From NCBI GenBank assembly GCA_020061995.1, contig JAGUXE010000222.1, forward strand, positions 1-26,586: 26,586 nucleotides of DNA, written 5' to 3'. A model generated the notes under the pieces. The model made no database searches, was not told the origin of the DNA, and saw only the letters and a program-made list of their open reading frames with translations. The first letter of the stretch is position 1. Every line of letters begins with the position of its first letter. The translations under genes and the position numbers were made by a program. Positions 19,001 through 26,294 of this stretch are shown here, piece by piece. The stretch is from Ignavibacteriales bacterium (GTDB lineage: Bacteria > Bacteroidota > Ignavibacteria > Ignavibacteriales > Ignavibacteriaceae).

Positions 19001-19008
19001 ATATTTCT

Positions 19009-19148
19009 ACAAACCTCCGAGGTTCAGGTGTTGTTTTGCGTGTAAACCTCGGAGGTTTTTAAGAGCGCAGAATTATTGCAAACCTTGCTATTCCAAACTT
19101 CCGAGGTTCAGATGTTGGTTTACGTGCAATCCTCAGATGTTTATTTTC
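19009..19148 (+). repeat. REP-like 84-bp repeat array, left part (units 1-2)
   Basis: Unit 1 covers 19009-19092 and unit 2 starts exactly 84 bases later at 19093 and breaks down in its right arm by 19148. The unit plan is a left arm AAACCTCCGAGGTT, about 20 bases of loop, a right arm AACCTCGGAGGTTT (its exact reverse complement), then TTTAAGAGCGCA and a spacer. Unit 2 has a changed left arm (AAACTTCC) and a degenerate right arm. Folded as RNA, unit 1 has a 14-bp stem followed by T residues and may also end the atu transcript. Confidence 0.9.
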
Positions 19149-19173
19149 TAGTAATTAGATTATAGGAATATAA

Positions 19174-19728
19174 TTGAATAAAGACAGAAAGTTTTATAAA
19201 AATACTTACCATCACTTGTATAATAGAGGTGCAAATAAAGGGCTAATCTATTTTGATCACAAAAGTTATCTCCATTTTTTACGCAGATTAAAATTTTATA
19301 AAGATAAATATTGTATTGAAATATTATCTTATTGCTTGATGCCAAACCATTTTCATCTATTTCTTCAACAGAAAACAAATGAATTATCCATATCAGTTTT
19401 CATTTCCTCTTTGTTGAATTCTTATGTTAAATCAATTAATAAAAAATTTAGTAGAAGTGGTACTTTATTTGAATCGAAGACTAAAAGTAAAATAATTTTA
19501 GATCAAAACTATTTTATGTGGGTTATTAAATATATTCTTGAAAATCCGGTTAAAGCCAAATTAGTCAAAAATATTGAAGACTGGGAATTCTCGAATGCAA
19601 AAGATATTCTTGGGCTTAGGAATGGAAATTTGACAAATCTAAATGAAATAAAATCTTACTTTAATTCAGAACAACAAATGAGAGAATATTTAACTAATAT
19701 TAATATCAAAGTTGACTATGAATTCTAA
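19174..19728 (+). mobile_element. REP-associated tyrosine transposase (RAYT, Y1/HUH type)
   Basis: A 184-residue single-copy-type transposase of the TnpA_REP/RAYT group of IS200-like Y1 HUH nucleases, which nick and rejoin single-stranded DNA at REP hairpins. Seen directly: Y-H-H-L-Y-N-R-G near the N-terminus, the metal-binding HUH motif H-F-H at 59-61 within M-P-N-H-F-H, G-T-L-F-E at about 96-100, and the nucleophile candidate Tyr120 in V-I-K-Y-I-L-E-N-P-V. The start is TTG at 19174 with AGGAA 5-6 bases upstream. The frame is intact. It is embedded in an array of 84-bp inverted-arm repeats, the arrangement expected of a RAYT and its REPs. Domesticated RAYTs do not move themselves, unlike IS200 elements. 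Confidence 0.9.
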
Positions 19729-19743
19729 ATTGTCTTGAGGCAT

Positions 19744-20086
19744 AGAGGTTATTAAAACTTCAGAGTTATTCCAAATCCTGATATTCCAAACCTCCGAGGT
19801 TCAGGTGTCGGTTTGCGTGCAAACCTCGGAGGTTTTTAAGAGCGCACAACTATTACAAACCTCGATATACCAAACCTCCGAGGTTTAGGTGTTGGTTTGG
19901 GTGCAAACCTCGGAGGTTTTTAAGAGCGCAGAACTATTACAAACCTTGATATTCCAAACCTCCGAGGTTCAGATGTTAGTTTGCGTGCAAACCTCGGAGG
20001 TTTTTAAGAGCGCACAACTATTACAAACCTCGATATTCCAAACTTCCTAGGTTCAGATGTTAGTTTACGTGCAAACCTCGGAGGTT
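19744..20086 (+). repeat. REP-like 84-bp repeat array, right part (half unit plus units 3-6)
   Basis: A degenerate right half-unit (19744-19785) is followed by units starting at 19786, 19870, 19954 and 20038, each exactly 84 bases apart. Units 3, 4 and 5 are near identical with perfect 14-bp inverted arms; unit 6 has a changed left arm (AAACTTCCTAGGTT) and stops after its right arm at 20086. Spacers alternate between CACAAC...CTCG (units 3, 5) and CAGAAC...CTTG (unit 4, also unit 1), a higher-order two-unit pattern. Together with the remaining bases to 20157, this accounts for the gap between the transposase gene and prfB. Confidence 0.92.
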
Positions 20087-20098
20087 AGTGGAGATGAG

Positions 20099-20129
20099 TT
20101 TGGGGTTTGATTCTTAATCGTTATTTTTG
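20099..20129 (+). promoter_or_regulatory. prfB: Candidate prfB promoter, Bacteroidota type
   Basis: TTTG (20099-20102), 19 bases, then TATTTTTG (20122-20129) is a full match to the Bacteroidota primary-sigma consensus TTTG-N19-21-TAnnTTTG. Start of transcription would fall near 20133-20136, leaving a leader of about 22-25 bases before the prfB ATG. It lies just 12 bases beyond the last repeat arm. Confidence 0.5.
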
Positions 20130-20157
20130 CACTACAAATTATAGAAAGAATAAATAT

Positions 20158-21259
20158 ATGTATGCTGACGAAGCGAAAAAACTGAAATCACTTCAACAAA
20201 AAATGGAAACAATTCGAGGTTTACTTTGACTTAGATGTCAAAGAAGATAAAATCCTCCAACTTCAAAATAAAACTGAAACCCCCAAGTTTTGGGATGATC
20301 AAAAAGCCGCTCAAAAAGTCCTGCTTGAAATAAAAGGTTTACAAGAATGGGTTATACTCTGGAATAATGTAAATCAAAAAATCCAATCTTTATCTGAATT
20401 AATCGAACTCGCCGAAGCAGAAGAAGATCAATCTTTTACTTCCGATATAGAGAAAGAACTCTCAATTATTTCTGCAGATATTGAAAATATTGAATTCAAA
20501 AATATGCTTAGCGGCAAAGATGATAATAGAAATTGTATTTTGACAATTCACTCCGGAGCCGGTGGAACTGAAGCACAAGATTGGGCTGAAATGTTAATGA
20601 GAATGTATCTTCGCTACGGCGAACAAGCCGGATATAAAACAACCATTGTTGATATTCTTGATGGTGACGGCGCAGGTATTAAAAGTGTTACAATTGAGTA
20701 TGAAGGTGAATTTGCTTATGGTTACTTGCGTGCAGAAAATGGTGTCCATCGTCTTGTGAGAATTTCTCCTTTTGATGCTAACAAACGAAGACATACTTCC
20801 TTTGCTTCTGTATTTGTTATTCCTGAAATTGATGATACTATAGAGATTGAAATCAATCCGTCTGATTTACGAATAGATACTTATCGTTCAGGCGGAAAAG
20901 GGGGACAAAATGTTAACAAAGTTGAAACTGCAGTCCGTATAACTCACCTTCCGACCAATACTGTAGCTGCTTGTCAGAGTGAACGTTCACAGGGTAATAA
21001 TAAAGCTAATGCGATGAAACTTCTTAAATCTAAGCTATATCAACAGGAGCGTGAAAAGCAGATTGAACTACTCGATGAAGTTGAAAAAAGTAAAATGAGA
21101 ATTGAGTGGGGAAGTCAAATCCGCTCGTATGTTTTTCATCCATATAATCTTGTTAAGGATCATCGCACTGAAGAAGAGACTTCAGATACTCAGGGTGTAA
21201 TGGATGGAAGCATAGGCAGATTCATCAAAGCATATCTGATGAAATTCAGTCAACATTAA
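20158..21259 (+). CDS. prfB: Peptide chain release factor 2 with programmed +1 frameshift
   Basis: RF2 reads UGA and UAA stop codons on the ribosome and releases the finished peptide. The first frame starts at ATG 20158 and stops at TGA 20227-20229 after 23 codons; a +1 shift at CTT skips T20227 and continues from GAC at 20228, giving 366 residues, about the length of E. coli RF2 (365). The second frame is open throughout and its peptide before the next Met carries the conserved RF2 N-terminal region. The codon-recognition motif S-P-F is at 203-205, and the catalytic G-G-Q at 248-250 in G-K-G-G-Q-N-V-N-K. The next gene follows after 11 bases. Confidence 0.95.
20216..20230 (+). promoter_or_regulatory. 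prfB: RF2 programmed +1 frameshift site
   Basis: GAGGT (20216-20220), a Shine-Dalgarno-like element, is followed three bases later by CTT-TGA-C (20224-20230). This is the classic RF2 autoregulatory layout: slow UGA decoding when RF2 is scarce allows slippage on CUU into the +1 frame. Spacing between the element and CTT equals that in E. coli, with GAGGT in place of AGGGGG. Confidence 0.93.
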
Positions 21260-23093: not shown

Positions 23094-23108
23094 AAACCTC
23101 CGAGGTTT
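23094..23108. repeat. Orphan REP-like palindrome
   Basis: AAACCTCCGAGGTTT is identical over its core to the left arm of the 84-bp repeat units about 3 kb upstream. It is a 15-base palindrome around a central C. No second arm or spacer accompanies it. Confidence 0.7.
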
Positions 23109-23270: not shown

Positions 23271-24008
23271 TTATTGAGGTTCATAGCGGTACCTTACTGC
23301 TCTGCTTCCGACTACATAACCACTTCCGTATGTTCCAGAAAAATTAGGTTTGTCACCAGTTTGTAAAACTAGGTCTTTATAACTGGTAACAATTATGGTA
23401 GTTGGTTTTCCTGCCCCAAAACTTGTAGCACTAGCTTGATGTACAAATTGTGTATCGATACCCTGATAAACGGTAAAATCTACAAGCTTTACAGAATAAT
23501 ACTCAGCTACATTGTCCCACTTAATAGTGTAGTTTGAATCGGCAGAAGTTTCTATAGAGTAAAATAGAGAGTCATTTGCTAACTCCAAAATTGGTAAAAA
23601 CCTAAAACCGTTACAAGTTAAGTTCTTTACGTGCTCAGGCATCTTGTATAAACCTTTAGTAATTTTACCATTACCAAGGATCTGAAAATTAATATACTCG
23701 GCATCCGGAATGTAAGTTGCATAAGAATTGAGTTTTTTGTTGGTTGAATCTATACCAAATCCTTTCAGCGTATCATTGTTGACAATTACTGTCGGGACTT
23801 CAAGAGTGTTAATAGCTTCATAAATTACTCGAATATGATTTCCAACAATTTTATTTTGCAAATATTTTTCTTCAGCTTTGAACTCCAGATGAAATACTTG
23901 TTTATTCTCATCAGATACTGATACAATCTCATTCTTTTCACAACCGAAAAATATATTCATGGAGAAGAGGATGATCAAAGAACTGACATAAACATTTGAA
24001 GTTTTCAA
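23271..24008 (-). CDS. Predicted lipoprotein, subtype A (copy A1)
   Basis: A 245-residue predicted lipoprotein of unrecognised family. The signal peptide ends in F-F-G-C with lipidated Cys23, followed by E-K-N-E. The core motif M-P-E-H-V-K-N-L-T-C-N-G-F (about 123-135) and the C-terminal G-T-Y-G-S-G-Y-V-V-G-S-R motif are shared with its paralogues. A Y-T-I-K-W-D segment after the core suggests a beta-sandwich second half. The start is TTG at 24008: AAGGAG lies 6 bases upstream, and the closer ATG (24015) reads out of frame and stops after two codons. It lies 13 bases after copy B1 and is last in the cluster, ending near the bidirectional terminator. Confidence 0.8.
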   Translation of the reverse strand: MKTSNVYVSSLIILFSMNIFFGCEKNEIVSVSDENKQVFHLEFKAEEKYLQNKIVGNHIRVIYEAINTLEVPTVIVNNDTLKGFGIDSTNKKLNSYATYIPDAEYINFQILGNGKITKGLYKMPEHVKNLTCNGFRFLPILELANDSLFYSIETSADSNYTIKWDNVAEYYSVKLVDFTVYQGIDTQFVHQASATSFGAGKPTTIIVTSYKDLVLQTGDKPNFSGTYGSGYVVGSRAVRYRYEPQ

Positions 24009-24021
24009 GACATTCTCCTTC

Positions 24022-24729
24022 TTAATTCCTTATTAAAATTTGGTACTTGAATTGCCACGTACAGTAGAAATATCCTTTACCATATCTTCCGAGAAAGTAA
24101 TAGGACTTTTTATTATTATTCCCTTTTATTGAAGATATAGATATACTATAACTCCCTGGAGTAAGAGTTAAGTTCTCATACATTTTTTTAGTAGTATAGA
24201 AATCATACCAAATATTTCCTCTGATTGACACATAAAAAGAATCACTATCTTCACAATCCCATTCAAACTTTAGTATCAAAGATTTCTGAATTGTATCAGG
24301 CATTAAATAATTGTTAGAGATAATTTGAGTTCCATTACATCTAAGATTTTTAATTTTTGATGGGAGTGGAATGTTCCCCTCGGTAGATAAATTAGTCCTC
24401 TCCAATTTAAATGGGAGGTTCTTTTTATAAGGAATTTTAATTTCTTCTGAAGAAAGAGAAAAGATTTCAGAATTTGTGTAAGGGATTGCAACACCGGGAA
24501 ACCAGGATAAAACTTCTTTCTGGTCTATGCTTAATTTTGGTATCTCAATAAAGTCGGTAGTATAAGCTCGAATTTTTAAAATAGTATTTTCTGTTTCATC
24601 TGATCCAACTAACCACGAATTAAAGTAAAAAACAGTTTCATCAGCTTCTGAGTACTTTATTACATTTTCTTCTTCTTTGCAACCCGCAAGTAACAGAGTT
24701 AATACTAATATCACAACAACGTTTTTCAT
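24022..24729 (-). CDS. Predicted lipoprotein, subtype B (copy B1)
   Basis: A 235-residue predicted lipoprotein. The signal peptide has a canonical lipobox L-A-G-C (Cys17) followed by K-E-E-E, close to the lipoprotein export signal K-(D/E)2 described for surface lipoproteins of Bacteroidota. It is divergent from subtype A but shares L-P-S-K-I-K-N-L-R-C-N-G in the middle and G-R-Y-G-K-G-Y-F near the C-terminus. Its own marks are L-K-F-E-W-D-C-E-D-S-D-S-F and Y-E-N-L-T-L-T-P-G-S-Y, the latter like the end of a fibronectin-III-like repeat. GAGG precedes the ATG by 6 bases. Function unknown. Confidence 0.8.
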   Translation of the reverse strand: MKNVVVILVLTLLLAGCKEEENVIKYSEADETVFYFNSWLVGSDETENTILKIRAYTTDFIEIPKLSIDQKEVLSWFPGVAIPYTNSEIFSLSSEEIKIPYKKNLPFKLERTNLSTEGNIPLPSKIKNLRCNGTQIISNNYLMPDTIQKSLILKFEWDCEDSDSFYVSIRGNIWYDFYTTKKMYENLTLTPGSYSISISSIKGNNNKKSYYFLGRYGKGYFYCTWQFKYQILIRN

Positions 24730-24761
24730 ACAACCTCACACAAAATATTTTTTAATTTTTA

Positions 24762-25487
24762 TTAAGGTTCATAACGGTAGCTTAAACTTCGACTTCCAAC
24801 TACAAAACCACTTCCGTATGTTCCCACTACAGTAGGCGTACTTTCAGGTGTTAATTTATAACCCTTAAGACTGGTAGCGTAAATAAAGTGTGGTTTACCT
24901 GCAGGATATAGCTGTTTACTATGTGTTGCAAATTGAGTATCATTACCCGAATAATCATTCTCACCATCAGCAACCGAGGAATTTACTAAGATATGATATC
25001 CATCTGCATTCTGATCCCATTTAAATATGTACATCGAATCGCTAGATTCTGGAATTTGATAATTTATAGAAGGATCTTCTAACTCAAGCAGTGGTTTAAA
25101 AATAAAACCGTTACACGTCAAATTCTTAACAATTTCAGGCATTACAAAAATACCTTTAGTAACTTTTTCATTTTTTACGATTTGAAAACTAATAATTGTT
25201 GTGTCTTTAATTGTCCAGAAACATCGGACTGTTCTTCTTGTTGAATCAATAAATGTTGTTTTTACAGTATCGCTATTTAAGATAATAAGGGGTGCTTCCA
25301 TCGTATTGTCAGTATTAAATTCAACTCTTATGACCGTACCGACAATTTGACTGCCAGCATAGTTCTCTTCAGCTTTGAATGATAAGTAAAAGAAATGCGA
25401 ATTTTCATCCGACACCGAAACGATTTCATCCTTTTCACATCCCCAAAAAACGAGTATGGAAACAAAAATTAAAATCAACTTTCTCAT
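24762..25487 (-). CDS. Predicted lipoprotein, subtype A (copy A2)
   Basis: A 241-residue predicted lipoprotein, closest to copy A1. The signal peptide ends in F-W-G-C (Cys17), followed by E-K-D-E-I-V-S-V-S-D-E-N, almost the same as A1. It has M-P-E-I-V-K-N-L-T-C-N-G-F, then F-K-W-D-Q-N-A-D-G-Y-H-I-L-V, which looks like a fibronectin-III-like strand pair, and the G-T-Y-G-S-G-F-V-V-G-S-R C-terminus. The ribosome site GGGAGGA lies 7 bases before the ATG, the strongest in the cluster, after a 75-base gap from A3. Function unknown. Confidence 0.8.
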   Translation of the reverse strand: MRKLILIFVSILVFWGCEKDEIVSVSDENSHFFYLSFKAEENYAGSQIVGTVIRVEFNTDNTMEAPLIILNSDTVKTTFIDSTRRTVRCFWTIKDTTIISFQIVKNEKVTKGIFVMPEIVKNLTCNGFIFKPLLELEDPSINYQIPESSDSMYIFKWDQNADGYHILVNSSVADGENDYSGNDTQFATHSKQLYPAGKPHFIYATSLKGYKLTPESTPTVVGTYGSGFVVGSRSLSYRYEP

Positions 25488-25562
25488 ACTTAATCCTCCC
25501 TCAATTTGGTTTATGTTTATTTCAAATACAATGTTTCATAAAACAGATGATGAAAATTATTT

Positions 25563-26294
25563 TCATGGGAAATACTTGAAAGTAGAACGAATAGAACCGA
25601 AATCATATCCACTGCCGTACGTCCCTTTGCAATATGGTTCATTGCCACTACTAAGATTAATGCCTTTGAAACTAGTCAGAGTGATTGAATAAGGTTTGCC
25701 TGTTTCAAATATATTATTTGAGGCATTATAAGAGAAATACGGAACACTTAAAGTACATGGTATAAAATTATTATTAACTCTTGCCACGTATACATCAAAA
25801 TTTGCATCCCAATTCACTGTATAAACTGAGTCATCAGGAATTCTATTTATAACAGATTGATTATCGAAATATCTGATAGGTTTAAAGTTAAATCCATTAC
25901 ACTTCAAATTTGTAACTTCTTCAGGCATGATGAAACTACCTTTAGTACTTTTATTCCCTTTAATAACTTCAAAATCGATAATGTCCGTATATGGAACGCC
26001 GTAGTTTACACTTACGCTGTTTGTAGAACTCGAATAGACTATATGCGATAGTGTATCTTGATTAATAATTACAGTTGGAATTTCTTTTGTATCGATTGCT
26101 TTAAAACGAACCGCAGTATAGTATCCGATAACATGGAAATTAGAATCAGTCTTCTCACTAGTTTCGAACGAAAAATGAAATAGCTGTTTATTCTCATCCG
26201 AAGGCGTTACGATTTGCCCCTTCTCGCATCCGATGAAATTTACACAGAAAATAAGTACCAGCAGAGTTAAGTTGTATTTCTTGGTTGTTTTCAT
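25563..26294 (-). CDS. Predicted lipoprotein, subtype A (copy A3)
   Basis: A 243-residue predicted lipoprotein of the same family. The signal peptide ends in F-I-G-C, then E-K-G-Q-I-V-T-P-S-D-E-N. The core reads M-P-E-E-V-T-N-L-K-C-N-G-F, and the C-terminus G-T-Y-G-S-G-Y-D-F-G-S, diverging from A1 and A2 at its last residues. It starts 15 bases after the B2 stop, the same tight B-then-A spacing as B1-A1. A 17-base palindrome (ATGAAAAT, T, ATTTTCAT at 25550-25566) overlaps its stop codon. Function unknown. Confidence 0.8.
   Translation of the reverse strand: MKTTKKYNLTLLVLIFCVNFIGCEKGQIVTPSDENKQLFHFSFETSEKTDSNFHVIGYYTAVRFKAIDTKEIPTVIINQDTLSHIVYSSSTNSVSVNYGVPYTDIIDFEVIKGNKSTKGSFIMPEEVTNLKCNGFNFKPIRYFDNQSVINRIPDDSVYTVNWDANFDVYVARVNNNFIPCTLSVPYFSYNASNNIFETGKPYSITLTSFKGINLSSGNEPYCKGTYGSGYDFGSIRSTFKYFP

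Follow-up and report, generated by a model that had tools for sequence, protein, structure and literature searches.

An intergenic segment of 1.1 kb in a 26,586-nucleotide stretch of DNA from an Ignavibacteriales bacterium (the window) is very probably a REPtron, in which a domesticated HUH-Y1 transposase of IS200/IS605-like kind (RAYT, or TnpAREP), present in low copy number, is flanked by clusters of its own substrate, a REPIN built of two inverted copies of AAACCT-NNN-AGGTTT. The whole segment, as delimited by BLAST comparison of loci, extends from an atuA-ferredoxin-like gene to prfB (19001-20157). Most knowledge of RAYT/REPIN systems comes from Proteobacteria, where a GTAG guide accompanies them. 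A REPtron that includes a tandem REPIN array is known in kind; the present locus is distinguished by having no visible GTAG guide and by a stem that has been kept over deep divergence.

The RAYT gene (19174-19728, plus strand) was defined from its open reading frame, Pfam and alignment. It starts with TTG, most aligned relatives having ATG, and encodes 184 aa with NHFH at residues 58-61, Tyr120 and a YILENP motif. The original prediction of an intact HUH/Y1 transposase (H-F-H, Tyr120) of the RAYT type was borne out: N58-H59-F60-H61 and Y120 are invariant in an alignment of 30 sequences, the Pfam model Y1_Tnp matches at 4.9e-07, and the assignment to RAYT is supported by this fold and by the association with repeats described below. 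The score against the NCBIfam model REP_Tyr_transpos (NF047646) is 62 bits; as the curated cut-off of 80 belongs to an equivalog model, this was read as divergence within the RAYT family. The motif given for RAYTs after the tyrosine is NP(L/V)(R/K)xG (Nunvar, 2010; PMC2817692). The window protein has NPVKAKL, in which NP(V)(K) is present and the G is missing, and some relatives have NPVKAG. Sixty-two residues separate NHFH from Tyr, which fits the HuH-Tyr distance of 58-67 reported for most subclasses (Quentin, 2018; PMC6006769). Because the same text accepts subclasses without GT[AG]G, RAYT membership stands, and the predicted protein is an atypical member with HUH and one catalytic Tyr, whose repeats show no GT[AG]G head. 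Each of six related genomes (G001-G006) has a single match to the RAYT at or above 60% identity, and the multiple near-identical copies that move as a unit in IS200/IS605-type elements were not found in these six. Among the matches listed, G283 has two at 70-71% and G364 a second at 59%, and second matches at 54-70% occur in G283, G364 and G289.

Six inverted-repeat units surround the gene in the window, two before it and four after. A repeat search found the 84-bp spacing both 5' and 3' of the gene, and Tandem Repeats Finder reports an array at 19767-20086 with a period of 84, 3.8 copies and 91% matches. Upstream, where units were located by repeat search and folding, unit 1 (19011-19058) has intact arms (AAACCTCCGAGGTT / AAACCTCGGAGGTTT) around a long spacer, while unit 2 (19095-19142) is altered in both arms, lacks a stable hairpin and adjoins the leader that connects the array to the RAYT start (19139-19173, plus strand, from alignment to G001). 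Downstream, by Tandem Repeats Finder and folding, the arms are intact in units 3 (19788-19835), 4 (19872-19919, with a 15-bp stem) and 5 (19956-20003), and the left arm of unit 6 (20040-20086) is degenerate (AAACTTCCTAGGTT). From the start of unit 2 (about 19094) to that of unit 3 (about 19787) there are 693 bp, and the two sides are in different registers. In single-strand folding, the four units with good arms reach z scores of -5.7 to -6.7, with none of 200 shuffles equally good, and units 2 and 6 (z of -0.1 and -1.3) fold no better than shuffles. The perfect 14-bp inverted arms proposed originally are thus a property of four of the six units (14-15 bp) and not of units 2 and 6, and the degenerate half units proposed for both sides were recovered, with degenerate units at about 19094 and 20039 and a half unit 3' of the RAYT stop (about 19745-19786, by eye). 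The array ends approximately 70 bp 5' of the prfB start (about 20158). The gene was named by eye from its sequence and from CTTTGAC at 20224-20230, which corresponds to the well-known RF2 site for programmed +1 frameshifting.

Genome-wide counts of the repeat were made in G001, a metagenome-assembled genome (MAG) labeled 'Ignavibacteria bacterium' that has the orthologous locus (L001) with a 95% identical RAYT and served as a stand-in for the genome of the window. The REP emerges as a 15-nt sequence, AAACCT-NNN-AGGTTT, with a 6-bp stem and a 3-nt loop. A REPIN of about 31-51 nt consists of two such REPs in inverted orientation and folds into a single long hairpin, the stem of which measures 14-15 bp. 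The 18 REPIN pairs of G001 comprise 10 dispersed pairs of 31 nt, six at the RAYT locus of 46-47 nt and two inside genes of 49 nt. As pairs elsewhere are mostly 31 nt and the long-spacer array form (6 of 18 pairs) occurs only at the RAYT locus, the 84-bp unit is local. Therefore, 84 bp stands as the period of the array but not as the length of a dispersed repeat, and the notion of an 84-bp REP was given up; we propose instead that the array arose at the RAYT locus when a single long-spacer REPIN was multiplied in tandem. The repeats are nevertheless REP-like and linked to the transposase, as had been supposed, since inverted REPs flank the gene and recur in related genomes. There, near-identical REPINs are dispersed in unrelated flanks, dispersal being seen for the short-spacer form. 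G255 has 67 REPIN pairs, with AAACCTYCGAGGTTT-TCCT-AAACCTCGRAGGTTT as the common unit. In the window itself, comparison with G001 revealed a solitary REP outside the array, before a tRNA-Glu gene (23094-23108; AAACCTCCGAGGTTT), which was not found at the corresponding place in G001. Beyond it (23271-26294) lie four neighbouring minus-strand open reading frames of 235-245 aa that look like secreted paralogues, three of them with GCEK..SDEN near the start.

Several further observations concern the settings of these repeats. Long-spacer REPIN-like pairs lie in frame at positions 701-749 of both L258 and L267 (G001), inside two T9SS cargo-like open reading frames (Por_Secre_tail); they add a peptide, which in L267 reads NLRG..SNLGGF, and recall the palindromic elements of Rickettsia. 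At L155 (G255), similar coding sequence appears by eye to flank the pair. By eye, hairpins at L257, L262, L263, L265, L287 and L288 (G001) and L289 (G397) seem to lie shortly 3' of T9SS-tail-like genes and share similar upstream sequence. Among the G255 loci L143-L211, 19 of 36 REPIN contexts fall within a longer repeat (AAAAGGTTATTATTACATAATGAGA ... TTGCACTTCACTTCCTTTATATTTG), which is possibly a second mobile element, and two contexts (L193) have a reversed loop order. In G267 (L293-L297), REPs of alternating orientation are spaced by 83-84 bp, equal to the period of the window and differently built. For a dispersed REPIN at G001:C13, the flanking genes gave only short matches in 25 relatives and none across the site, so that no empty site with junctions was obtained there, and a search of viral contigs found no relative.

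The coordinated changes of the two arms indicate that the REPIN would be kept as one hairpin and not as two. In 43 distinct arm pairs (from 46 rows plus 14 from G283, 60 in total, with shared descent of the copies uncorrected), 47 stem bases depart from the consensus, of which 16 pair with the other arm, none pairs within its own arm and 31 do neither. Double changes are inter-arm in eight cases and intra-arm in none, next to 21 uncompensated single-change cells; random placement of the changes yields a mean of 0.32 inter-arm doubles and never reached eight in 20000 trials. To avoid a bias towards perfect arms, mismatches were allowed anywhere in the arm search, and G255 was left out as its listed copies (50 of 73) were all exact. 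GAGATT/AATCTC in G001 and GACGTT/AACGTC in G003 are examples of compensated arms. Compensatory changes across REPINs have been reported for Pseudomonas (Bertels and Rainey, 2011; PMC3116915), and the same rule would therefore apply here, in the arms. Template-switch repair, rather than selection, could also have produced the mirrored changes.

The presence of the repeats across genomes is associated with that of the transposase. In 391 genomes from the class of G001, sorted by hand and with RAYT status taken from the matches listed (that of G361 being partial), at least three copies of AACCTCSGAGGTT were present in 9 of the 10 genomes for which a RAYT match is listed at or above 60% identity versus 7 of the 381 others (Fisher, 2e-13). 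Counts reach 125 in G255, as against 0 or 1 for the reversed pattern. The original prediction had named repeats without the transposase as evidence against a link; a minority of genomes with no listed match at that level do have three or more copies: G137 has 19 copies, G142 and G303 six each, G214 five, and G206, G338 and G267 three each. The RAYT of G267 has 56% identity, and incomplete assemblies could account for some of these seven. With a wider pattern (AACCTYSRAGGTT), ten chosen genomes gave 106 copies in G267, 29 in G373, 17 in G007, 11 in G289, 5 in G273, 4 in G037, 2 in G401, 1 each in G017 and G123, and 0 in G397. G037 has no RAYT match at all, and G289, with a RAYT of 61%, has no exact CCG/CGG REP. 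In other Ignavibacteria, too, this palindrome adjoins the RAYT, at different loci: ACCTnnnAGG lies within 350 nt of the RAYT at 7 of 8 loci with at least 52% identity versus 4 of 72 more distant ones, and no flanking REP was seen at L008 (RAYT 56%). Around 5001-5498 of L012, from a Bacteroidetes MAG, a 39%-identical RAYT is flanked by four ACCT-nnn-AGG copies, their loops being TTA/CTA/TAG; these may belong to a deeper branch of the REP family.

The loops beside the genes differ between RAYT clades. In the RAYT tree, which was read without branch support values, all 13 loci in the clade of the window carry CCG and/or CGG loops next to the gene, with further loops in G255, G283, G002 and G006. 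Deeper RAYTs have TCA/TGA or TCG/CGA loops in 7 of 8 cases, and the three outgroups have none. The second RAYT of G006 (53%) is an exception to the clade pattern, its CCG/CGG loops being unlike those of its tree neighbours. Within genomes, 7 of 10 dispersed 31-nt pairs of G001 have TCG/CGA loops, whereas its RAYT flanks have CCG/CGG; in G267 the RAYT flanks have TCA/TGA and the dispersed copies, among the matches listed, mostly TCG/CGA; G003 and G006 have several loop types each. It is conceivable, though doubtful, that this Ignavibacteria clade reads the hairpin itself instead of a GTAG guide, with a near-constant AAACCT/AGGTTT stem, three loop bases that serve as a specificity code and change along with the protein, and the entire REPIN hairpin of 14-15 bp as substrate, copies even entering genes in frame (T9SS cargo-like). 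The loop code is the part weakened by the mixing of loop types within genomes.

That no GTAG guide is obvious, as first noted, agrees with the feet of the six window units, where no GT[AG]G head was found. In G255, GT[AG]G occurs within 7 nt of the foot in one of 36 contexts, and no conserved tetranucleotide was found outside the REPINs in the 17 contexts beyond the longer repeat. In these 17 (two of which, both from L193, share flanks with each other), T at +1 (17) and A at -1 (15) are nearly constant, and A at -5 (14) and +8 (12) stand out more weakly, in AT-rich surroundings.

RAYT genes with clustered or BIME-like repeats alongside have been described before (Nunvar, 2010; Bertels and Rainey, 2011; Quentin, 2018). 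The Proteobacterial systems, of Pseudomonas and others, share with the window HUH and one Tyr, inverted REPs flanking the gene, REP doublets that form a long hairpin with compensatory changes across it, ordered tandem REPIN clusters, BIMEs beside RAYT genes and REP-RAYT coevolution, as far as described in those texts (Nunvar, 2010; Bertels and Rainey, 2011). Unlike in these systems, the GT[AG]G head is unseen here and the REP is a 15-nt hairpin with a 3-nt loop. Moreover, REPs are called species-specific in the text of Quentin (2018), whereas the ACCT/AGG core is found here beside RAYTs down to about 44-50% identity to that of the window. Residues W94, Q95, E100, H101 and R104 of E. coli TnpAREP (PDB 4er8; Corneloup, 2021; PMC8266576), which are tied to GTAG recognition (Quentin, 2018), correspond in a weak alignment (E 0.1) to F99, E100, S105, K106 and L109. 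In the classification of Quentin (2018), the window protein shares features with two subclasses. TnpAY1 subclass 2.6 (RAYT group 5) is likewise linked to Bacteroidetes and has 'atypical secondary structures' without GT[AG]G beside the gene, with copies elsewhere in the genome. By its description, however, it is set apart by a 21-aa insertion between alphaC and beta4, of which there is no sign here, a median HuH-Y distance of 82 (62 here), YIH[QN]NP (YILENP here) and WQ (F99-E100 here). The NH[YF]H motif of subclass 2.1 (RAYT group 1) fits NHFH, but its median length is 238 aa as opposed to 184, and it is described as having no REP-like sequences found with it, which are clear here. TIRtrons also combine a RAYT-like gene with flanking inverted repeats without GTAG, some self-complementary and some families in dimers or clusters (Di Nocera, 2013; PMC3733652). 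The TIR sequences named in that text differ from ours (e.g., GGGGWSAS); most others stand in its figures, and some overlap with them is conceivable.

Comparison of loci bears on how the gene and the array came to lie together. L001 has the same neighbours, the atuA/atuA-ferredoxin-like gene pair on one side and prfB on the other, with seven neighbouring genes 84-89% identical at the DNA level. In G397, G037, G005, G074 and G210, the order atuA, ferredoxin-like gene, prfB is kept, with a short gap that has neither RAYT nor AACCTnnnAGGTT; flanking BLAST matches are about 99 bp apart in G397 and 73-78 bp apart in G005 and G037, and the RAYT of G005 sits elsewhere in the genome. The intergenic stretches of G303, G394 and G172 contained no AACCTnnnAGGTT either. 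G397 retains one decayed REPIN-like copy and no exact REP. As relatives lack both gene and array, both would have come in together, or arisen there, after the split from G397. In addition, G001 has four units upstream and two downstream, the reverse of the window, so the array itself changes. A gene that replaced, or was captured within, an existing array, as first suggested, is not supported by these data. Mismatches between the two RAYT genes form a mosaic, with 1 in 19139-19352, 31 in 19353-19566 and 1 in 19567-19735; the leader has none, and the middle is approximately 14% different, like the neighbouring genes. The overall dS of 0.27 (0.5-1.6 for neighbours), the dN/dS of 0.09 and the mosaic point to recent allele exchange and purifying selection, a chimeric MAG assembly being another possible cause of the mosaic. 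Non-coding constraint as the cause of the near-identical ends was not supported, because third-position identity to eight more distant RAYTs (0.32-0.56 at the ends, 0.38-0.57 in the middle) shows no consistent difference.

The near-identity of the RAYT ends, set against neighbours at 84-89%, would also be expected if the RAYT and its palindromes moved as one unit, with the palindromes as the ends of an IS200-like element that is autonomous, or of a 'TIRtron'. In the window, L001, L002, L004-L007, L117 and L118, the gene has palindromes close by on either side, the neighbouring sequence of the RAYT differs among several genomes, and relatives have an empty prfB locus. At L118 (G333; around 1501-2052), approximately 60 bp of the end of the upstream gene are directly repeated 3' of the RAYT and REPINs, resembling a target duplication by eye. 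However, there is one close copy per genome in G001-G006, REPINs far outnumber the genes in several genomes, and G004, G172 and G333 appear by eye to have common sequence upstream of the RAYT. At the window's site, where intergenic DNA has diverged so that exact junctions are undefinable, neither clean ends nor a target duplication can be drawn. We therefore regard such an element as unlikely.

It is still harder to see the palindromes as host elements, either bidirectional terminators or mRNA-stability hairpins, among which the RAYT lies by chance. Most examined copies are indeed intergenic (in G001, 10 of the 12 pairs that lie away from the RAYT locus; in G006, all seven fetched of 28; a tally without L269, where no pair lies within 30 nt), the hairpins are stable, and several seem by eye to follow T9SS-tail-like gene ends. 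Against this, the repeats associate with one RAYT clade, a near relative (G397) has a decayed copy only, and some copies lie in frame within coding sequence, which makes the idea very improbable as a full account; host and mobile functions are compatible, since a REPIN that moves can serve as a terminator as well. Hardly any credence is due to the view that the array is an ordinary minisatellite which grew by slippage and has no connection with the RAYT: the regular 84-bp period and the differing unit numbers of the window and G001 would fit, but slippage does not account for REPINs with these arms being dispersed in related genomes, or for their lying next to the RAYT where it occupies other loci.

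For the REPtron, we infer binding, cleavage, movement and target choice as follows. A single-stranded REPIN would fold, for example at replication forks, and the RAYT would bind the hairpin via stem and loop and not via a 5' GTAG tag. H59 and H61 would hold a metal ion and Tyr120 would attack the DNA; cleavage and strand transfer would then move REPINs in trans, mostly to intergenic sites, the RAYT gene itself seldom moving.

A mostly open-access literature search, covering this repeat, RAYTs, and Ignavibacteria with palindromic repeats and transposases, gave no title on the subject among those listed; 'atypical' Bacteroidetes REPs are noted by Quentin (2018), in a text that leaves their recognition unexplained. 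A near-constant stem with short loops that differ between RAYT clades would amount to a set of natural protein-DNA pairs, and such pairs may allow one to test how an HUH enzyme selects its hairpin when no guide is apparent.
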